DNA of 64,000 nt from NCBI GenBank assembly GCA_021324885.1, contig JAJPIF010000006.1, positions 152,554-216,553 on the forward strand, read 5' to 3'. Within the stretch, counting starts at the first letter, position 1; each line of letters starts with the position of its first letter. The position numbers were made by a program, and so were the translations under genes. Below, piece after piece: positions 12,445 to 60,347 of this stretch. A model generated the notes under the pieces. The model made no database searches. It saw only the letters and a list, made by a program, of their open reading frames with translations, and was not told where the DNA came from. This stretch comes from Pseudomonadota bacterium (GTDB lineage: Bacteria > Desulfobacterota > Binatia > Binatales > Binataceae).

Positions 12445-12461
12445 TTGGCACGAGTTTCGCT
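12445..12461 (+). promoter_or_regulatory. Candidate sigma-54 promoter of the small secreted protein
   Basis: TTGGCACG-AGTT-TCGCT matches 12 of 13 defined positions of the sigma-54 consensus TTGGCACG-N4-TTGCW, with exact GG-N10-GC spacing. The -12 GC lies 46 nt upstream of the ATG at 12506. That predicts a leader of about 34 nt containing the strong GGAGG ribosome-binding site. Confidence 0.65.
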
Positions 12462-12505: not shown

Positions 12506-12913
12506 ATGCGAAGATTCTTCTGTGTTCTCGCGGCGGGAACGATGGCGGTGGCGATGGCCGTCCCGGTTATCGCCCAGGCCGGTCCGGCCGATACCAATAG
12601 TCAGCCCATGCAGATGGCATCGGTAAAGTCCGGCAACGTGATTATCGAAGGAGGAGGAGGGTCCACCGCCGACCTCAACGTCGCGCGCTATAAGGCCTGG
12701 GACGAATTCCGCAGCAATCATCCGGAAATAGTTCGTGAAATACGGCGCAATCCAAGGCTCGTGGGCAGCCAGAGTTTCCTCCGCCGCCACCCTGCCCTGG
12801 CACGGCTGTTCGATTCCAACCCGGGTATGCAGCAGAGTATGATGCGGTATCCGGGTAATTACGTTGTCCCGGCGATGACGCATCGCTACCGGATGGCTAA
12901 AGCTACCCGGTGA
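12506..12913 (+). CDS. Small secreted protein of unknown function
   Basis: 135-aa protein with a clear Sec signal peptide: basic MRRFF, a hydrophobic core and a likely AQA cleavage site near residue 25. The mature part has a polar linker with four glycines, then a charged helical segment (KAWDEFRSNHPEIVREIR) with repeated 'NHPEIV / RHPALA / NPGMQQ' phrasing. I do not recognise a named domain. A strong AGGAAGGAGGT Shine-Dalgarno precedes the ATG, and an excellent sigma-54 -24/-12 site lies upstream. Both point to a genuinely expressed and regulated periplasmic or exported product. It is convergent with the enoyl-CoA hydratase, with a hairpin between them. Confidence 0.75.
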   Translation: MRRFFCVLAAGTMAVAMAVPVIAQAGPADTNSQPMQMASVKSGNVIIEGGGGSTADLNVARYKAWDEFRSNHPEIVREIRRNPRLVGSQSFLRRHPALARLFDSNPGMQQSMMRYPGNYVVPAMTHRYRMAKATR

Positions 12914-45809: not shown

Positions 45810-46757
45810 CTAGGGACGGGGCAGTACCAGCACCTCAGAGCGCGCCATCTGCAGATTAAGCCGCGCAAGGTAAACTGGCAAACCGTTGGAATCTACGGCC
45901 ACATGCGTGGAGCCGTCGCATTGGCACCAGACGCTGAAGGCGTCGTTGATGCGGGCGAACTTCTCGGGCGCAATCGCTGATTGCTTCAGGTTGTCATCAG
46001 GGACCTTCAGTTCAAGCGTATGCCCTGTGATCGCGATCGCCGAAAGCATCGGCACCCCAGCCGCCGAGGTGTCGCGTCCGATCCAGCGCTTGAACGCCCG
46101 CTGGTTCATCATGTGCAAGCCGGGATAGTCCTCGTTCAGAACCACCAGAACATGACGGACGTGGCGTTTGCTGTGGCGCAGCGAAATCTGGTCGCGGCGG
46201 TCGACCGCGGTCCACAACTGCCGCTCCATCCGGGAAACATTGCCGGTGTCATCTGGAGCGACTCGCAAGTAAGTCTGCAACGCTGAGGAGGCCCGGCCGA
46301 TATCACCGTTGTGCAAGGCCTGTTGGAAACTCGCCGCTTCCTGACGCTTTAAATCGCTGTCGATTGCGGCCAACCGCGGGCCGCTCGAACTGCCCGGCTC
46401 CTGCACCGCTTGTTGGCAGGTCAGGTGCTGACGCCATAACGAATAGGTCGGCGGGCCGATTTGAACCTCGGTGCTGCAAAGGTCGTCCTTTGCCTCGCGA
46501 CGCTCTTGCGCATTCAACGAGGGATCCTGCAAGGCCGCTTCCAACTCCCGATGGGCCTGTGCATAATTGCCGGAGTCGATGCTGGTGCGGGCCGAGGACA
46601 GCATCGCGTTGGTGCACCCGCTCAACGTAGCTAACCAGAGCGAAGCGAGGACCTGCAGCCAGAATAGCAGCGGGTAGCGCTGGAGGGGCAGGTTGGCAAA
46701 CCGGGCCCCAGCCTCACCGATGCTTGCGACTGGCGCTGACCAGACGGTACCGTTCAT
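45810..46757 (-). CDS. Predicted lipoprotein with helical repeats, unknown function
   Basis: 315-aa protein with an unusually long n-region, then LFWLQVLASLWLATLSGC: a lipobox LSGC with Cys48. The mature part begins with a helical repeat resembling a TPR (SIDSGNYAQAHRELEAALQDP). A second half is mixed alpha/beta (HVRHVLVVLNEDYPGLHMMN and AIAITGHTLELKVPDDNLKQ) and ends DSNGLPVYLARL. No catalytic signature is recognised. ATG 46757 is the best start; the track ORF runs into the divergent methyltransferase. A possible weak sigma-54 site precedes it. Convergent with mscL. Confidence 0.6.
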   Translation of the reverse strand: MNGTVWSAPVASIGEAGARFANLPLQRYPLLFWLQVLASLWLATLSGCTNAMLSSARTSIDSGNYAQAHRELEAALQDPSLNAQERREAKDDLCSTEVQIGPPTYSLWRQHLTCQQAVQEPGSSSGPRLAAIDSDLKRQEAASFQQALHNGDIGRASSALQTYLRVAPDDTGNVSRMERQLWTAVDRRDQISLRHSKRHVRHVLVVLNEDYPGLHMMNQRAFKRWIGRDTSAAGVPMLSAIAITGHTLELKVPDDNLKQSAIAPEKFARINDAFSVWCQCDGSTHVAVDSNGLPVYLARLNLQMARSEVLVLPRP

Positions 46758-46792: not shown

Positions 46793-46809
46793 AGCAACGC
46801 GTATGCCTG
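46793..46809 (-). promoter_or_regulatory. Weak candidate sigma-54 promoter of the lipoprotein gene
   Basis: CAGGCATA-CGCG-TTGCT on the minus strand keeps GG-N10-GC spacing and a perfect TTGCT -12 element, but only four of eight -24 positions match. The -12 GC is 37 nt upstream of the ATG. Confidence 0.3.
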
Positions 46810-47979: not shown

Positions 47980-48151
47980 GCCTGAGCATTTTCTCGCGCC
48001 GATTCGATTTGCAACCGATCCCGTGGTCGAGACTGGACGGGTTCCGGCCGGGGCGAATTTCCAAGCACCCATGGCTGTATCCGAACGGGCCGAGGTGATG
48101 CCTTTTTGGAGCCACACGAAACGGGGGTAGGTTGGCGGTCAGCGAAATATG

Positions 48152-48198: not shown

Positions 48199-48215
48199 TC
48201 GGCTCGGAATTTGCT
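48199..48215 (+). promoter_or_regulatory. Candidate sigma-54 promoter of the activator gene
   Basis: TCGGCTCG-GAAT-TTGCT matches 11 of 13 positions of TTGGCACG-N4-TTGCW with GG-N10-GC spacing. The -12 GC lies 56 nt upstream of the ATG at 48270, implying a leader of about 44 nt and possible autoregulation. Confidence 0.6.
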
Positions 48216-48269: not shown

Positions 48270-49772
<1,503 letters not shown>

Positions 49773-49841: not shown

Positions 49842-50570
49842 ATGGTCGAGCAAATGCGAGAGGAAATCGTCCACCAAGTACGTGCCGCCCTGGAACACGA
49901 GCCGCGCCTTAACCTCCATCGTTTTCCACTCCTTATCCGCCAGGCCTCGGACGGAACCGTGGTGCTGCAAGGCGAAACTCAAAGCGTCGCGGCCAAAAAA
50001 CTGGCCCTCGAGGTAGCCGCCGCGACGCCCGGCGTAGCCGACATTATTGACCGATTACATGTCGCTCCGGCGCGCCACATGGGCGACGGCGAGATCCGCG
50101 ACCATGTGCGTGACGCCCTGCTGCAGGAGCCCGTCTTTCAAAACCATATAATCCGCACCGCCTCGGGCGGCCGCGACAAGAATGCGCCCTCGCCGGGGCT
50201 ATCCCGTTATATAGAGATTGCTGTCGAGGAGGGCGTCGTCGCCCTTGACGGGCAGGTCGGTAGCTTGTCCCACAAGTCCCTGGCGGGGACGTTGGCCTGG
50301 TGGGTACCCGGAACCCGCGACGTGATCAATGCGATTGACATTGTGCCGCCGCAGCAGATCAACGACGCCGAGATCAATGATGCCGTGATGCTCATTCTGG
50401 AGAAGGACCCATGGGTAAACACGAGCCGAATCCGCGTGCTTACCCGCAATCGCATAGTCGTTTTGGAGGGTTATGTGAGCAGTTCGGATGAACGGGAGAT
50501 GGCTGATATGGATGCATGGTGCGCTTTCGGCGTCGACCTGGTAATGAACCGTCTGGAAGTCCAACCGTAA
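49842..50570 (+). CDS. Triple BON-domain protein
   Basis: 242-aa protein made of three BON domains in tandem: residues ~1-70, ~80-165 and ~172-240, each with the pattern DGTVVLQGETQSVAAKKLA or GVVALDGQVGSLSHKSLAG or NRIVVLEGYVSSSDERE. No signal peptide is visible at the chosen start (MVEQMREEIV), which follows GTGGAGAATTAC, so the protein is probably cytosolic; OsmY-like relatives are periplasmic. BON domains bind phospholipids and are linked to osmotic or envelope stress. It is 69 nt downstream of the activator and probably shares its transcript. Confidence 0.85.
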   Translation: MVEQMREEIVHQVRAALEHEPRLNLHRFPLLIRQASDGTVVLQGETQSVAAKKLALEVAAATPGVADIIDRLHVAPARHMGDGEIRDHVRDALLQEPVFQNHIIRTASGGRDKNAPSPGLSRYIEIAVEEGVVALDGQVGSLSHKSLAGTLAWWVPGTRDVINAIDIVPPQQINDAEINDAVMLILEKDPWVNTSRIRVLTRNRIVVLEGYVSSSDEREMADMDAWCAFGVDLVMNRLEVQP

Positions 50571-50809: not shown

Positions 50810-51049
50810 ATGCGATACGAAAGGAGTAGCCCAAAGGGCGGCCGGACCGTCGAAGGAGCGGCGGGCGGCGCAAATGAAATCTGGACTGTGTCGATGCTGG
50901 CACGGTATCTGCGGTGCCATCCCAGCACCATTTATCGCTTGCTGAAACGTGGCCAAATACCTGCATTCAAAATCGGCAGCGACTGGCGCTTTCAGAAGTC
51001 AGTAATTGATCGCTGGCTGAAAAAATCGACCATCGATTCTCTCGCAGGC
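50810..51049 (+). CDS. Excisionase-like helix-turn-helix protein
   Basis: 79-aa small DNA-binding protein of the excisionase/MerR-like HTH_17 type. The domain is WTVSMLARYLRCHPSTIYRL, followed by LLKRGQIPAFKIGSDWRF and SVIDRWLKK. A basic N-terminal tail (MRYERSSPKGGRT) precedes it. ATG 50810 is preferred (upstream GGGAAAATACG); the ORF track extends 21 codons more. In such proteins the partner is often an integrase or a restriction system, but neither lies here. It stands alone between two gene-poor stretches of relatively AT-rich DNA. Confidence 0.75.
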
Positions 51050-51052
51050 TAA

Positions 51053-51327: not shown

Positions 51328-51579
51328 CTATTTATTGTTGATGCGTGGCCTCAAATACCTGACAAAGTCCTCTATTGTCAGAATCTTGGGGTAGTCGGCT
51401 TCGGGAATCTCGACGCCCGTGGCATCATGGATAGCAACCATCAAGTCCAGGACGTTCATTGAATCGAGATCGACCTGATCACGTAAATTGATTGTGGAAT
51501 CGATTTGCGCAGGGTCGATCTCGGGTGCAATGTTGCATAGCTCGCGCAATACCAACTCTCTGATCTCGCTGTCGGTCAT
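51328..51579 (-). CDS. Acyl carrier protein
   Basis: 83-aa acidic carrier protein. The phosphopantetheine attachment motif is DLDSMNVLDL with Ser40, and helix III sequence IEDFVRYLRPRI closes the fold. The ATG at 51579 overlaps the stop of the E2 gene by 4 nt (ATGA), and CCGGAGAAG gives a Shine-Dalgarno. The track ORF starts 46 codons earlier within the E2 gene and is not credible. Unlike the standard AcpP, it lies in a 2-oxoacid dehydrogenase operon, suggesting a specialised role such as acyl-chain handling for lipoylation or a dedicated acyl pool. Confidence 0.92.
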   Translation of the reverse strand: MTDSEIRELVLRELCNIAPEIDPAQIDSTINLRDQVDLDSMNVLDLMVAIHDATGVEIPEADYPKILTIEDFVRYLRPRINNK

Positions 51580-52856
51580 AACTTCTCCGGGTTCTGCAGC
51601 AGGCGGTCCAAAGCTGCGAGGAACAAACCACCACGATGGCCGTCGCTGGCGCGATGGTCGCCCGAAAGCGAGGCCATGATTATTGGCCGCGCGCCGATCA
51701 TGCCACCTTCCGCCCACGGTCGCTCAACGATCTTGCCGAAACCGACCAGTGCGACTTGCGGCGGATAAATCACCCCGAAGACGCTCTCGATTCCCTGCTC
51801 GCCGAGGCTCGTCACGGTGATAGTGGCGTCGGCGATTTCGGAACTGCGCAGCACTCCGGCCCGCACGCGCTTAACCAGGCCGCGCAGGCTGACCATAATT
51901 TCGCTCAGACTCTTTTTGTCCGCGTCATGAATGGCAGGAGCGACGAGACCGCCCAGGCGCAGCGAAATTGCCACACCCACGTGTATCCCATCGCCGGGCT
52001 TGAAAGCGCCGTCCACCCAGAACCCATTAAGTTCAGGAAACTCGCGCAAAGTCAGGGCCACTGACTTGAGCAGCATCGCCGAGTAAAGCAGACGGTCATT
52101 GATACTGCGCCTGAGATTTTCCTCCCGCAGCCATGCGATCGCGCGGCTCATGTCGATTTGCGTGCCGAGATAATAATGCGGGATTTCACGCTTGGAGCGC
52201 GCCATCGCCGCCGCGATCGCCCGGCGCATCGCCGCTTGCTTGTCTGCCGCCATCATCGCGGGGCGAATCTCTTTGGCTGCAGGCGTGGGAGTCGGCGATG
52301 GCGTTGCGATGGGAGGAGGAGGCGGTGGCGCCGCAGCGGCTTTGCCCTTGGCGGCCGCTTCCACATCGAATCGGGTGATGGCGCCGCCCGGACCCGTTCC
52401 TTTGACCGTGGCCGGATCGATGCCAAGTTCCAACGCCACGCGCATCGCCAATGGCGAGATGCGCAGATGAGCGGTAGCTGCGGCGGACGCTGGTTTTGCG
52501 GCGGGCGCGGCAGGCGGAGCCGCCGGCGCAGGCGCCGTCGGCAATGCGGCAGCCGGACGCAGCGAAGATGGGGCAGGAACGACAGGCACAGGCTCACGCA
52601 CGGGCGGCGCCGGAGTCTCGCCGTCTGTTGCGATCAGCGCCAGGGTGGCGCCGACTGGAACTTTATCGCCCTCCTGCACCGCAAAGCTTTGCACGGTACC
52701 ACTTTGGAACACCTCGATTTCGATCGCGCCTTTTTCCGTCTCAACGACGGCGATGATATCGCCACGATTGATGCGGTCGCCGGGCTTGACCAGCCACTGT
52801 ACCAGCGTGCCCGTTTCGATATCAGCGCCCAGCGATGGCATCCTGAACTCAATCAC
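51576..52856 (-). CDS. 2-oxoacid dehydrogenase E2 (dihydrolipoamide acyltransferase)
   Basis: 426-aa core of the 2-oxoacid dehydrogenase complex, which moves the acyl group from E1 to CoA. An N-terminal lipoyl domain has the lipoylated lysine in [12 protein letters not shown] (Lys42). An Ala/Pro-rich linker ([14 protein letters not shown]) leads to the E1/E3-binding domain [16 protein letters not shown]. The catalytic domain carries [12 protein letters not shown] near the C-terminus (His401, Asp405). The GTG at 52856 overlaps the end of the E1-beta gene by 8 nt and is preferred over the downstream ATG. The ACP gene overlaps its stop. Confidence 0.94.
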
Positions 52857-53862
52857 GTTTGCCCACCAGTGCGCGCGCGGTCTCGACAATCACCGACACC
52901 TGGGGAAGCGCCGCTTCCTCCAGGTGCTTGGGATAAGGCATGGGCGCTTCGGCGCTGCACACACGCTGCACCGGCGCGTCGAGCTCGTAGAATGTGCCTT
53001 CCATGATTCGGGCGCTGATTTCGGCCGAAATGCTGCCGCTGCGCCATCCTTCATCGATGATCACCGCGCGATGGGTCCGCGTGACGGAATCGACAATGGC
53101 GTCGTTGTCGAGCGGGCGCAGCGTGCGCAGGTCCAGCACTTCGGCGTCGATCCCGGCGGCGGCAAGCTCCAGCGCCGCCTGCATCGCTTTGCCCAGGGTG
53201 CCGCCGTAGGTGATCAGGCTCAAGTCGGAGCCGGGGCGCCGGATCGCGGCGTGTTCGATATCGACCGCGCCGGCGTCGGCGGCAAGTTCCCCCTCCATGT
53301 TGTAAAGGCTGCCGTGCTCGAAAATAAGGACCGGATCGGGATCCTCAAGGGCCGTCCACAGCATCCCGCGAGCATCCTCGAGCGTGGCTGGAGCAAGCAC
53401 CTTGATACCGGGGATATGCGCATACCAGCCCTCCAGCGAATGCGAATGCTGCGCAGCCAATTGCCGTCCGGCGCCGGTGGTCATACGGATCACCAACGGG
53501 ATATTGAACTGACCGCCAGACATGTGAAGTATGGTCGCAGCGTTATTCACGATCTGATCAAGCGCCAGCAGGCTGAAGTTGACCGTCATGATTTCCACGA
53601 TCGGACGCATCCCACCCATCGCCGCGCCGATACCGGCGCCGACGAAGGCCGATTCGGAAAGCGGAGTGTCGCGAATGCGTTCGGGGCCGAACTCCTCCAG
53701 CAGTCCCTTGCTGACTGCGAAACATCCGCCATAACGCCCGACGTCCTCGCCCATCAAAAAGACGCGTGGATCGCGGATCAGCGCGTCCCGTATCGCCTCG
53801 CGCATCGCTTCCCGATAGGTCGTGTGGATCGTTTGAGGCCTGGTTTGTTCTTGGGCACTCAT
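52849..53862 (-). CDS. 2-oxoacid dehydrogenase E1 beta subunit
   Basis: 337-aa beta chain of the E1 heterotetramer. Family phrases are [20 protein letters not shown] near the N-terminus, [19 protein letters not shown] and [16 protein letters not shown]. It helps bind thiamine diphosphate with the alpha subunit. The ATG at 53862 overlaps the E1-alpha stop by 4 nt (ATGA) and follows CCGAAAGGACGCGAAC. The E2 start overlaps its end. With E1-alpha and E2 it forms most of a pyruvate- or branched-chain-type complex; E3 (lpd) is not in this cluster. Confidence 0.95.
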
Positions 53863-54866
53863 GTTCGCGTCCTTTCGGAATAGACGAAACGCGTCAGGTC
53901 CTCTACCGGTTCCCACGTTCCCGCTTCGGCAAAATCAACCGCTTTCTGTACTTCGGCGGCAACCCCATCCTCGATTCGCTTGAGCCGGTCGTCGTCCAGG
54001 AGTCCGGATTCGCGCAGACGGCCGTCGTAAATCAAAATTGGGTCGCGCTTTTTCCATTCGTCAATTTCCTGTTTGGTGCGATAGAGTTGGGGATCGAACA
54101 TCGAATGCGCCCGGAAGCGATAGGTGCGGAACTCCAGGAACACCGGACCACCCCCGCCGCGCACCTCGGCCGCCGCGCGGCGCGCGGCATCTTCGCAGGC
54201 CTCGACATCCATTCCGTCAACGGGCCAGGCGGGAATTTCGTAACTGGAAGCCTTAAGGCACAGATCGGTTTCGGATTCGGAACGCCCCAACGCCGTGCCC
54301 ATCGCGTAGAGATTGTTTTCGCAGAAAAAAAGCACTGGCAGTTTCCATAATGCGGACAGATTGAGACATTCGTGAAACTCACCTTCCGCCACCGCGCCTT
54401 CGCCAAAAAAGCAGGCGGTGACGCGCGGACGCCTGGCTAATCTGTCAGCCAACGCCAGGCCCACCGCGAGTGGCAGACCACCGCCCACGATCGCGTTGCC
54501 ACCATAAAAGCGCGTGGCCGCGTCGAACAGATGCATTGAACCACCGCGCCCGCGGCTGCATCCTTCCTGCTTGCCGTACAATTCCGCCATCACTGCGGGG
54601 GCAGGAACGCCGCGTACCAGCGCGTGCCCGTGTTCGCGATAGGTCGCAACCACCGCGTCGTCGGGCGCGAGCGCCTGCATGGCGCCGGCGGCAATCGCTT
54701 CCTCTCCGATGTACAGGTGCACAAAGCCGTGAATCTTGCCGGCGCGATAGAGTTCCGCGCACTTCTCCTCGAAGCGCCTGATCAGCACCATTTGTCGAAA
54801 CAAATCGAGGGCGTGTTCCCTTTGCGGTTGCGCCTGCGCGGCGGTGATGGATGTAATCGCAGTCAT
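53859..54866 (-). CDS. 2-oxoacid dehydrogenase E1 alpha subunit
   Basis: 335-aa thiamine-diphosphate-dependent dehydrogenase alpha chain that decarboxylates pyruvate or a related 2-oxoacid. The ThDP/Mg motif reads [18 protein letters not shown] with [11 protein letters not shown]; the first Asp of the usual GDG is Glu, a variant seen in the subfamily with the NLYAMGTAL phrase. The substrate loop [18 protein letters not shown] precedes it. It overlaps the acyl-CoA synthetase gene upstream by 4 nt and E1-beta downstream by 4 nt. This is strong evidence for one polycistronic, translationally coupled unit. Confidence 0.95.
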
Positions 54867-56620
54867 TGGCTCTCCAGCGTAGAGAGGTCGCCCTCAGCCA
54901 GTCCAAGTTCACGTGCCTTGAGCAGACGCCGCATGATTTTGCCACTTCGGGTTTTGGGCACATTGGCGACGCAATCGATCTCGCGCGGCGCCACCACCGC
55001 CCCCAGGCGCTGGCGCGCGAAGCCAAGCAGTTCCCGGCGCAACTTGTCGTTCCAGGTGTAAGCGGGCTTGAGTGAAACGAACGCTTTGACCACCTCGCCG
55101 GCAACCGGATCGGGTTTTCCGATCACGCCCGCTTCGGCCACCGCCGGATGTTCCAACAACAGGCTTTCGACTTCGAACGGCCCAATCAAATGACCGGAGG
55201 ATTTGATCACGTCATCGGCGCGGCCGACGAACCAGAAGTAGCCGTCCGCATCGCGCCGCGCCAGGTCGCCTGTCAGATACCATCCGCCGATAAAACACTT
55301 GCGATAGCGCTCCTCATCGTTCAGATAGCCGCGGAACATCGAGGGCCATCCGGGACGAAGCGCGAGTTCTCCCTCGACTCCAGGCTGGGTCACCTCCTCG
55401 ACCGCATTGTCGCCGACGCGGCGCACGATACCCGCCTCGATGCCAGGGAGCGGGCGGCCCATTGAACCTGGGCGGATGTCCAGCGCGAGATAGTTGGCAA
55501 TCATGATGCCGCCAGTCTCGGTCTGCCACCAGTTATCGTGGATGGGAAGCCCGAACGCCTTCTGGCCCCAAACCACGCCTTCAGGGTTGAGCGGTTCGCC
55601 AACGCTCGCGATCAGGCGCAGGCTGCTGAAGTCATACTTGCGAATCACATCAGTTCCAACCTTCATCATCATTCGAACCGCGGTCGGTGCGGTATACCAA
55701 ACGCTTACCCTCTGTTCCTGGACGATTCGGTACCATTGCTCGGCGTCGAAATCAGCCTCATTAACGATGCTGGTGATGCCGTGAGTCAGGGGCGCGATGA
55801 TGCCGTACGAAGTGCCGGTGACCCAGCCGGGATCGGCAGTGCACCAGAAAATGTCGCCGGGATGGAAATCGAGGGCGATGCGGCCGGTCATATAGTGGGC
55901 GACCACCGCCTCGTGGACATGCATCGCACCTTTGGGGGTCCCAGTGGTCCCACTGGTGAAATGCAGCAGGGCCAAATCTTCGGGCTGGGTCGACGCAATC
56001 GCGAAGTCCTCGCCTGCTTGAGCCATTAATAGGCGGAAATCATGAGTGCCGGCTATGGCGTTGATTTCGCCGGGTTCGCCGATCAGCAGAATATGCTTCA
56101 ATCCCGGTAGCGACGCGCAAACTTCCGCCACTTTGCGCTTGAACAACGCTGCGGTGGTGACGAGCACGCGGCCATCGGCCAGGCTGATGCGCTGGCGAAT
56201 CGGCTCGGGGCCGAATGCCGAAAAAAGAGGGCAGAAGACATGACCGCCCTTAAGCGCGCCGAGCGCACTGATGTAGAGTTCCGGAATTCTGCCCGCGAGC
56301 AGAAAAACGCGCTCGCCGCGGGCGAGGCCAAGTTTTTTCAGCACATTGGCGAAACGATTGGTCTGTTTGGCTAACTCACCGTAGGTGAAGTCGCGTGTTT
56401 CGCCGCTGCGCCCAAGCCATCGCAACGCCAGGTGGTCGCGCCGCGATCCGAGCGCGTGACGATCGACGGCTTCATAGGCAATATTCAGACGCCCGTCAGG
56501 CAGTCCGTCCAGCGCACGGCGCGCTTCCTCCCAGGAAAACGTCTCCCGGGTCTTTTCATAATCGAGCAGGTTGGGCGCCAACGTCCATGCGCGCGGCTTC
56601 TCTATCGTCTTCCAGGCCAT
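54863..56620 (-). CDS. Acetyl-CoA synthetase-like acyl-CoA ligase
   Basis: 585-aa AMP-forming ligase of the AcsA/acetyl-CoA synthetase type. P-loop-like motif [19 protein letters not shown] lies near residue 223, the adenylate-binding [13 protein letters not shown] and [11 protein letters not shown] follow, and the C-terminal lysine motif [16 protein letters not shown] is in the lid domain. It activates acetate or a short acyl group. It is first in the overlapping synthetase-E1alpha-E1beta-E2-ACP operon and follows the HPF-cold-shock gene by 34 nt, with GCTGGAGACCAA as Shine-Dalgarno. The link to 2-oxoacid dehydrogenase suggests control of acyl-CoA supply. Confidence 0.95.
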
Positions 56621-56654: not shown

Positions 56655-57191
56655 TCAGTGCCTGCGTTCAGCGACGGTTACGGTGCTCGCTTGCGGTCCT
56701 TCGTCGCCTTCCTCTTCGACGAAGCGGACCTGGGTCCCGATTTGAAGTCTGTCGAAACCGCCATTCAACACGCTGTTGCGATGAAAATAGATTTCGCGGC
56801 CGTCCGCGGTCTCGAGAAAGCCGTAATCAGCCGACAGCCTGGACACGCGACCTTGCGCTGGCGCCTCGTGTGCTTTGACGTCGCCGCGATGCTCGCGGAC
56901 ATAATCTTCCAATTGGCGCCTCATCGCGTCGAAGGCCTCGCGGATGGCCGCGGCCAGGCCCTCCTCGGATTGCCGGTTCACGATCAGTTCCTTGCCCGGA
57001 ACGGTCAGTCGGACATGTACCTTGAACGGACCGCCTTTGCGATGATGCTCGACCGGAGCTTCGACGGTCACATCGCAGCCCGTGATTCTGGTGAAATAGG
57101 TGTCCAGTGACGCGGCCTTTTCCCGTATTTCGGCCTCGAAGGCCTCAGACAGGGCGAAGTCACGAGCGGTAATATTCAGTGCACGTTGCAT
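56655..57191 (-). CDS. Ribosome hibernation promoting factor fused to a cold-shock domain
   Basis: 178-aa fusion. Residues 1-~105 match the HPF/RaiA N-terminal domain (MQRALNITARDFALSEAFEA, KVHVRLTVPGKELIVNRQSE and LEDYVREHRGDV), which binds 30S subunits to make idle ribosomes. Residues ~118-175 form a cold-shock (CspA-like) OB fold: GRVSRLSADYGFLETADGR, then EIYFHRNSVLNGGFD. ATG 57191 follows GGCAGGAGAAAGC; the track ORF begins 27 codons earlier. A sigma-54-like promoter lies upstream. HPF-CSD fusions are known, but the start of a metabolic operon right behind it is unusual. Confidence 0.9.
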   Translation of the reverse strand: MQRALNITARDFALSEAFEAEIREKAASLDTYFTRITGCDVTVEAPVEHHRKGGPFKVHVRLTVPGKELIVNRQSEEGLAAAIREAFDAMRRQLEDYVREHRGDVKAHEAPAQGRVSRLSADYGFLETADGREIYFHRNSVLNGGFDRLQIGTQVRFVEEEGDEGPQASTVTVAERRH

Positions 57192-57243
57192 GCGTAAGCT
57201 TTCTCCTGCCAATTCCCTTTTTCCTCCCCCGCAGTCTGACAGT

Positions 57244-57260
57244 AGCAATTGACGTGCCCT
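57244..57260 (-). promoter_or_regulatory. Candidate sigma-54 promoter of the HPF-cold-shock gene
   Basis: AGGGCACG-TCAA-TTGCT on the minus strand: GGCACG and TTGCT are perfect, with GG-N10-GC spacing (11 of 13 positions). The -12 GC is 54 nt upstream of the ATG at 57191, leaving a leader of about 42 nt. Transcription could continue into the synthetase-dehydrogenase operon. Confidence 0.62.
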
Positions 57261-57390
57261 CTGAATTCGCATCGCAGCCAGCCTGGCGCGGCCAAACGGC
57301 GGCGTATCATGCTACCGAAGGATTCAGCAGGCTGATCCCGTCGGCACCAGAAGCATGGAGGTGAGGAGAAAGTGGGCCGCGGGGATGCGA

Positions 57391-58122
57391 TTACAGTCTG
57401 GTGATAACATCGGCCGGCGTGTAGCCGATGCTTACGGCCAGCAACACGGCGGCGGCGGCGAGCTGCAGCGCGTCGCTTTGCGCTTGGATCAGTGCGCGCA
57501 GGGCGATGATGTGGCAGGCAGGCGAGCGGATCCCGTTTTCAGCCAGGCCGGACCACGGATCGGAATCGAAGATGGCGTCGATGAGCGGATTGCAGTCAAA
57601 GCCGGATTCCGCCAGCGCTTCGCGGATGGCGACGCGGCGGAATTCGGCCGGTTCGGTTCTTTCGAAATCAACCAGTCGCGCAATACGCTTGCGCATCAAT
57701 GGGAGCAGCCGGGCATAGTTTGCGACCGCACTCAAATATGGCGTGGCCTCCTGCTGATCGAGAAAATCCCCCACCGTACCTTCCTCAGCATAGACTCCGA
57801 TCGAACCGAACGCGGGTTCCAGCCTGATGAATCTTTCGGTGCCGGCCGTGCTTTCGATCCCGAGCGGATAGAGGCGGCACGGCAATGGCCTGCCCGAATG
57901 GATGCTGCAAAACCCGTTGCGCAGAAAGACGCAGGAGCCGTCGTGGCTGAACCGCAGGAGGGAGCCGCGCCTTAAGCTATAGCGAGAGATCAGCTCGGCT
58001 GTTCCCAGACCGGTCACCGACGCCATCCGCATCACGTCATACGGCGAAAGCGTGATGACCTTGTCGCGACAGCACAATCCACAGCATCCACAGCGGTAGG
58101 AAAACGCGCTCGATCGATCCAT
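57391..58122 (-). CDS. YkgJ-family cysteine cluster protein
   Basis: 243-aa protein with the YkgJ (CxxCxxxxC-type) cluster: CGCCGLCCRDKV near residue 11, CVFLRNGFCSIHSGRPLPC near residue 64 and RLYPLGIES. Such proteins likely bind zinc or an Fe-S cluster; the family is annotated as 'zinc/iron-chelating', with no confirmed role. The remainder is helical, with a Leu/Ala-rich C-terminus. The start ATG is at the beginning of the cluster region. Stand-alone gene in a divergent position to the acyl-CoA dehydrogenase and 199 nt from the HPF gene. Confidence 0.9.
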   Translation of the reverse strand: MDRSSAFSYRCGCCGLCCRDKVITLSPYDVMRMASVTGLGTAELISRYSLRRGSLLRFSHDGSCVFLRNGFCSIHSGRPLPCRLYPLGIESTAGTERFIRLEPAFGSIGVYAEEGTVGDFLDQQEATPYLSAVANYARLLPLMRKRIARLVDFERTEPAEFRRVAIREALAESGFDCNPLIDAIFDSDPWSGLAENGIRSPACHIIALRALIQAQSDALQLAAAAVLLAVSIGYTPADVITRL

Positions 58123-59431: not shown

Positions 59432-59832
59432 GGACAATTCTTCCTGCTTGCATGAAGGCTCCCTTGCCGTGTCATGAATGCCCGCAGGAGAAGCCAGGCG
59501 AGGGAACCTTGAACATCGCGTAATTTTTCCAGCGGCGCAGTAAAAAAGTTCCTGACCTGGTGCCAAAAAGGGCGCGTCTGACTCTGAGCATCTCCCGCCC
59601 CGCGTTGAAAAAAGCGCCGACGGCCTGTGGGGTGCGGAACTTTGCTCCGGGGCTGCCGCTCTCTGACTCTGTAAAGAATAGCTGGCGACATGCACCCGGG
59701 TGCGCATCTTCATGGCAAAGCCGTCGAACCTGCATCTTCCGGAAACATATCGAATCACAAATTTTTGATTCCGGCGGAGTCAGTGGTTATCAAGAATTTA
59801 AGGGGCCCTTCCGCCCCTGGTGGATTGGGCCG
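59432..59832. other. Intergenic region upstream of hsp20
   Basis: No supported ORF; two track ORFs are shadows of unusual composition. It contains the perfect palindrome GCACCCGGGTGC at 59692-59703, and the hsp20 promoter lies at its end. No ncRNA signature was recognised. Confidence 0.45.
59692..59703. promoter_or_regulatory. Perfect palindrome upstream of the hsp20 promoter
   Basis: GCACCCGGGTGC is a 12-bp perfect palindrome centred about 135 nt upstream of the -24 element. This is a typical distance for a bEBP enhancer site, but no copy was found at the other candidate promoters. Confidence 0.3.
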
Positions 59833-59849
59833 TTGGCAAGGCATGTGCA
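59833..59849 (+). promoter_or_regulatory. Candidate sigma-54 promoter of hsp20
   Basis: TTGGCAAG-GCAT-GTGCA matches 11 of 13 positions of TTGGCACG-N4-TTGCW with GG-N10-GC spacing. The -12 GC lies 38 nt before the ATG at 59886, with the CAGGAGG Shine-Dalgarno in the leader. Confidence 0.6.
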
Positions 59850-59885: not shown

Positions 59886-60347
59886 ATGGCAAATCCAATC
59901 CAAATCTGGAATCCGTTTCGCGAGATGGAGCATTTTCGCCGGGACTTCGATGATCTGTTCGATCGATTCCTGGGACGCACCAAACGTGGCGGCAGGGAAC
60001 CGGGCCTCATCGAACCAGCCATCGAGTCGTATATCGAAGGCGACAAGCTGGTGGTACGGGCCGATCTGCCCGGAATCGATCCCAAGAACGTGGAAATCAC
60101 TGTAACCGGCGACATTCTGACCATCAAAGGAACCCGCGAGGAGAAGCGCGAAGAGAAGGAGCGCAATTTCGTTTTCAAGGAGGTCAGCTACGGTTCCTTT
60201 GAGCGCTCGATTACGCTGCCGGCAGGGGTTAAAGCCGACGACATTAAAGCGTCGTATAAGGACGGGGTACTGGAATTGACGGCGCCGGCGCCCAAGGAAC
60301 TGGCCGCGCGCAAAGTTCCAATCGAGGTTGGCAACGCGAAACGGTAG
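59886..60347 (+). CDS. Hsp20/alpha-crystallin family small heat shock protein
   Basis: 153-aa ATP-independent chaperone that holds unfolding proteins in large oligomers. The N-terminal arm (PIQIWNPFREMEHFRRDFDD) is followed by the alpha-crystallin domain: ESYIEGDKLVVRADLPGIDP, ILTIKGTREEKREEKERNF and DGVLELTAPAPKE. The C-terminal RKVPIEVGNAK carries the I-x-V oligomerisation motif (IEV variant). ATG 59886 follows a TTTTCAGGAGGTAGTGAG Shine-Dalgarno; the track ORF reaches 22 codons upstream. A sigma-54-like site precedes it. Convergent with dapA, and the terminator hairpin overlaps the dapA stop codon. Confidence 0.94.
   Translation: MANPIQIWNPFREMEHFRRDFDDLFDRFLGRTKRGGREPGLIEPAIESYIEGDKLVVRADLPGIDPKNVEITVTGDILTIKGTREEKREEKERNFVFKEVSYGSFERSITLPAGVKADDIKASYKDGVLELTAPAPKELAARKVPIEVGNAKR

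Follow-up and report, generated by a model that had tools for sequence, protein, structure and literature searches.

Background

The DosR regulon of mycobacteria, whose members include Hsp20, CBS and Usp proteins, is controlled by a response regulator not known to act with sigma-54. It is a dormancy regulon, and it raises the hibernation factor RafH (PMC10799931). A hypoxia regulon that does involve sigma-54 is described for Myxococcus xanthus, where it is controlled by the NtrC-like activator NmpR (PMC11841059). A hibernation factor and sigma-54 are also joined by gene order in the rpoN-hpf cluster of E. coli (yhbH/hpf) and many Proteobacteria (PMC3162934). HPFcold is a hibernation factor of Coxiella burnetii (CBU_0020; PDB 9T0Z, 9TZE). 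According to the available passages of its description, the N-domain occludes the decoding centre and the cold-shock domain (CSD) grips the anti-Shine-Dalgarno tail, thus protecting 70S ribosomes; these passages treat the protein and its structure, and no promoter (PMC13392368). In the literature searched, which excludes most subscription papers and preprints, we found no published sigma-54 promoter of a hibernation factor, nor any papers on control of the HPFcold gene.

Here we describe an HPFcold-type gene, hpf-csd, in the window (the whole stretch of 64,000 nucleotides analysed), which is part of a 4.53-Mb MAG. We consider it probable that a genuine sigma-54 promoter at 57259-57244 drives hpf-csd together with acs-E1alpha-E1beta-E2-acp, as part of a regulon under the activator encoded at 48270-49772 (Table 1). 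Judged by analogy, the design appears closest to that of NmpR, and to that of DosR. As in the NmpR regulon, predicted sigma-54 promoters and dyad sites precede CBS and universal stress protein genes, the activator would be autoregulated, and a globin-type sensor would act in the pathway. As with DosR and RafH, a hibernation factor would be co-regulated under a dormancy signal. It departs from them in its dyad, in the inclusion of HPFcold and in a sensor of predicted globin fold that is part of the activator. In the NmpR system, the sensor is a heme globin kinase that acts upstream and passes phosphate on to the response regulator, whereas here the activator itself includes the predicted globin-fold domain, which lacks the heme His. 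The dyad is of the type TGTATCC...GCGNCA and does not conform to the GCGCA-N5-TGCGC dyad of NmpR. The putative regulon contains both a hibernation factor and Hsp20, neither of which is mentioned in the NmpR paper (PMC11841059). Finally, HPFcold has a CSD, and RafH, a long HPF, has none.

Table 1. Coordinates, strands and basis of assignment of features discussed in the text.
Feature	Position in window	Strand	Basis or score
Candidate activator site GGCTGTATCCGAACGGGCCGAGGT before activator gene	48073..48096	plus	14.8 bits, p 0.026
Sigma-54-like element CGGCTCGGAATTTGCT, 54 nt before activator gene	48200..48215	plus	13.9 bits
Candidate activator: globin-fold N-terminal sensor, sigma-54 AAA+, HTH_8	48270..49772	plus	Pfam, AF2, Foldseek
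Triple-BON-domain protein downstream of activator	49842..50570	plus	Pfam BON x3
Acyl carrier protein-like (PP-binding)	51328..51579	minus	Pfam
2-oxoacid dehydrogenase E2	51576..52841	minus	Pfam 2-oxoacid_dh
2-oxoacid dehydrogenase E1 beta	52849..53862	minus	Pfam Transket_pyr/Transketolase_C
2-oxoacid dehydrogenase E1 alpha	53859..54866	minus	Pfam E1_dh
AMP-forming acyl/acetyl-CoA synthetase (acs), second gene of putative operon	54863..56620	minus	Pfam AMP-binding
HPFcold-type hibernation factor (hpf-csd), Ribosomal_S30AE and CSD, 178 aa	56655..57191	minus	Pfam, phmmer
Sigma-54 -24/-12 element GGGCACGTCAATTGCT	57244..57259	minus	Sequence reading, orthologue conservation
Candidate upstream activator site TTCTGGTGCCGACGGGATCAGCCT of hpf-csd, centred 81 nt before -24/-12 element	57329..57352	minus	Motif scan
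Candidate activator site before Hsp20 gene	59727..59750	minus	11.2 bits, p 0.066
Sigma-54-like element TGGCAAGGCATGTGCA, 36 nt before Hsp20 gene	59834..59849	plus	12.7 bits
Hsp20 small heat-shock protein	59886..60347	plus	Pfam HSP20

The hpf-csd gene and its probable promoter

Both the promoter element and the identity of the gene behind it can be read from the sequence. Pfam places a Ribosomal_S30AE domain and then a CSD in the ORF at 57191-56655, in agreement with the fusion named in the first-pass annotation. By its homology to CBU_0020, which extends from end to end (phmmer 1.2e-38 against 9T0Z, over residues 1-176), the product is HPFcold, the same two-domain protein as in Coxiella. The fusion is not new, because the ribosome-bound HPFcold structure 9T0Z was published in 2026.

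The element, read from 57259 to 57244 on the minus strand, has the layout GGGCACG-TCAA-TTGCT. GGCACG and TTGCT are both exact, as had been claimed along with canonical spacing; the spacer is 4, the GG-N10-GC core is intact, and the first base, a G where the consensus has T, is the sole departure from TGGCACG-N4-TTGCW. From the element to the ATG at 57191 there are 52 nt (not 54 nt, as first annotated). Transcription is predicted from the general sigma-54 distance rule to start at about 57233, 12 nt past the GC, and the leader would then span about 42 nt and include AGGAG. Neither a sigma-70-like promoter nor a terminator was found in the region 57150-57420.

An in-frame alternative ATG at 57272, which would put the element within the ORF, was judged unlikely for four reasons: with 57191 taken as the start, the Pfam match begins at residue 5; the alignment of orthologues opens with this Met; AGGAG stands before its codon; and in the sister species the distance from element to ATG shifts by 10 nt, which is no multiple of 3.

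The genome encodes rpoN and 20 strong sigma-54 activator genes. Together with the intact core, the conservation in relatives and the spacing control, these support the central proposal of the first-pass annotation, that the HPF-CSD gene is directly under a sigma-54 promoter. Its appeal to rpoN-hpf linkage calls for a correction: the linkage is present in this genome, but the gene adjoining rpoN is a separate, canonical hpf (G000:C13) and not hpf-csd. The described rpoN-hpf clusters thus concern another hpf gene and a positional linkage, whereas hpf-csd has a predicted promoter of its own.

Conservation before orthologues

Upstream regions were scored with an approximate, self-made sigma-54 matrix, using genes from our own gene caller; elements of at least 12 bits with spacer 4 and within 150 nt of a start were counted. 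Of 39 orthologues, drawn from the same class and from MAGs like this one, 15 have such an element, and no element was detected before over half. Nine other spacers together gave one sense and one antisense match among these 39 orthologues, no antisense element with spacer 4 was found among them, and spacer-4 elements are likewise absent from the orthologues of other phyla (0/58). Within the family, 7 of 21 orthologues have the element compared to 3 of 137 baseline genes (Fisher p 2.5e-5, kinship ignored), a value that is indicative only, because the genomes compared share ancestry.

In the sister species, GGGCACGCCGATTGCT lies 62 nt before the hpf-csd start, and the elements of other genera include TGGCACGCTGTCTGCT, TGGCACATCCGATGCA and TGGCAAGCCGGTTGCT. 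Between independent genera, the distance to the start shifts while the element stays. Some orthologues that lack a direct element follow a CBS gene of the same direction that has one: at L181 and L186 this CBS gene bears a strong element, and at L172 a weak one (12.9 bits).

At L007, L027, L030-L032 and L194, the element ends just 10-15 nt before the hpf-csd ATG, and a nearly leaderless mRNA would be needed, a point against the promoter reading. In some of these cases an SD-like GGAG is present within the gap.

A probable stress regulon with a shared upstream dyad

In 412 kb of hpf-csd surroundings from the family (window included), 33 intergenic sites with spacer 4 lie at most 160 nt before starts, and other spacers yielded 0-4 sites each. 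The genes behind the spacer-4 sites encode CBS and DUF2267 proteins, Hsp20, FBPase, PRPP-synthetase, glucan phosphorylase and similar proteins; the CBS, DUF2267 and Usp identities in this genome come from searches, and the others from reading of the proteins or from similarity to window proteins. Control probably reaches beyond one gene, to a stress/dormancy regulon and the downstream acs-E1a-E1b-E2-acp operon. Nutrient state, as named in the first-pass annotation, is a hypothetical input; by analogy, the gene set is closer to dormancy regulons of the low-oxygen or low-energy kind than to one for nitrogen.

An unsupervised motif search of the 200 nt upstream of the elements recovered TGTATCCGTTGGCGNCATT, a dyad located 40-150 nt upstream that is common to many of the island sigma-54 promoters (consensus TGTATCC-N~5-GCGNCA; LLR 398, compared to 112-134 in shuffled sequences). 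When the hpf promoters were left out of training, the motif scored them at a mean of 11.7 bits, compared to 2.7 for controls (p 1e-4). The window's own hpf-csd site (57329-57352) has 9.8 bits and is weak alone (single-site empirical p 0.09). Like the conservation of the element, the co-occurring promoters and the shared motif were established by sequence comparison. Motif models restricted to symmetric forms had a lower score than the free model, and a match in the window at 50898-50913, inside the HTH_17-like gene, was dismissed as chance.

Other sigma-54-like elements of the window are found at 12446-12461 (plus strand), 44 nt before the gene at 12506-12913, and at 46793-46808 (minus strand), 35 nt before the gene at 45810-46757. 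Neither gene has a Pfam match, and both elements lack the shared dyad and are probably under other activators. Elsewhere in the genome there are strong sigma-54-like elements at L230:3554-3569, L225:4420-4435 and L227:3855-3870; one of the genes behind them encodes a Flp pilin, and the others have no assigned function. The excisionase-like HTH_17 gene (50810-51052) adjoins the activator gene, and a sigma-54-like element lies 18 nt before a related HTH_17 gene at L242.

The candidate activator

The first 190 residues of the candidate activator have no match in Pfam, and a sequence-profile search of the PDB with the N-terminus returned only weak calcium-protein noise. The AF2 model of this N-terminal domain (pLDDT 86.9) predicts a globin fold. 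Its top Foldseek matches are all globins, though at E of only 0.01-0.1, and they include the sensor domains of AfGcHK and BpeGReg as well as the non-heme pXO1-118 (E 0.01-0.06, TM by target mostly 0.65-0.79). A heme sensor is unlikely because helices E/F (residues 63-102) contain no His in any of the 21 aligned rows, and heme-based oxygen sensing was set aside for want of a proximal His.

Among the approximately 20 sigma-54 activators in the genome, this one was singled out by the shared motif and by co-occurrence. The activator family is present in 19 of 19 searched family genomes that have full-length hpf-csd and absent from 6 of 16 that lack hpf-csd (hypergeometric 0.005, calculated by hand with kinship ignored). 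It is rather unlikely, in our estimation, that the promoter and regulon are real but belong to another of the roughly 20 enhancer-binding proteins, such as an NmpR-type response regulator. Several sigma-54 elements do precede genes for response-regulator activators, and more distant relatives bearing the element (e.g., G058) lack the globin-fold family, and must therefore use another activator. However, motif candidates occur at the activator, hpf and Hsp20 promoters of the window, two other and unrelated sigma-54-like promoters there score below zero, and the activator gene is located inside islands that hold the same target families.

A paralogue of the activator is encoded at G000:C10:213799 (L223:6740-8305), with USP+CBS, CBS and AAA/APH genes as neighbours.

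Under the favoured assignment to the 48270-49772 protein, this globin-fold enhancer-binding protein would bind dyads of the TGTATCC...GCGNCA type 40-150 nt upstream and would open the sigma-54 holoenzyme complex under stress related to energy or oxygen. The hpf-csd promoter would be one member of the lineage's sigma-54 stress/dormancy regulon, and transcription from about 57233 would cover hpf-csd and then acs-E1alpha-E1beta-E2-acp. By homology to the Coxiella protein, HPFcold would block the decoding centre of idle 70S ribosomes and cover the anti-Shine-Dalgarno end of 16S rRNA. We also put forward, tentatively, a bolder reading that is quite possible: in this uncultured lineage, a one-component, non-heme globin-fold sensor fused to a sigma-54 activator may directly induce HPFcold and a dormancy set (Hsp20, CBS, Usp, DUF2267, BON, PRPP synthetase, FBPase and glucan phosphorylase), as a DosR-like regulon rebuilt on sigma-54.

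Genes downstream of hpf-csd

The acs gene begins 34 nt after hpf-csd, and the order is the same in the sister species (L171). Because of this short gap and common order, the promoter probably drives acs-E1-E2-acp too. Sigma-54 control of aco operons by AcoR, which has a GAF/PAS-type sensor, is established. The same arrangement would fit a promoter that serves acetoin/pyruvate-type catabolism, as in aco operons, with hpf-csd as a passenger first gene and another activator in control. We regard this as improbable, since in other genera hpf-csd retains the element (L175, L177 and L187) where no acs module of the same direction is adjacent; at L173 and L176 acs is separate and either divergent or convergent, and no strong element was flagged before it. 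Also, the sensor of the candidate activator is predicted to be a globin fold, not GAF/PAS. The module at 51328-56620 (acyl-CoA synthetase, E1a/E1b/E2 and acyl carrier protein) moves as a block near hpf-csd at L171, L173 and L176.

Chance expectation in the genome

There are four occurrences of GGCACGNNNNTTGCT in the genome, compared to none for the reversed control. With one mismatch allowed, TGGCACGNNNNTTGCW has 37 matches genome-wide and the reversed pattern has 39, so motif similarity alone is weak evidence; counting across the genome was therefore dropped as a discriminator, and location and conservation were used instead. Among the first 30 one-mismatch matches, 14 fall between genes and 11 are no further than 150 nt from a start; for 30 reversed-pattern matches, the respective figures are two and none. 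Conservation across orthologues places the element well beyond chance. It is very improbable that the element is a chance match in GC-rich intergenic DNA, with transcription of hpf-csd due to a housekeeping promoter that escaped detection or to read-through out of the same-strand CxxCxxCC gene (200 nt upstream, with no terminator between), despite the similar one-mismatch counts, as the element is kept at shifting distances in independent genera, is spacer-specific, is absent on the opposite strand and is enriched before starts, and the gap upstream of hpf-csd has no sigma-70-like site.

Implications

How bacteria come to park their ribosomes is understood in few lineages, and gene order has so far been the main ground for linking sigma-54 with hibernation factors. 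With the conserved promoter, the activator motif common to many promoters and the candidate sensor described here, this link becomes testable. The findings suggest that a little-known soil group, mainly known from assembled genomes, has come to use all-or-none control by sigma-54 for a dormancy programme.
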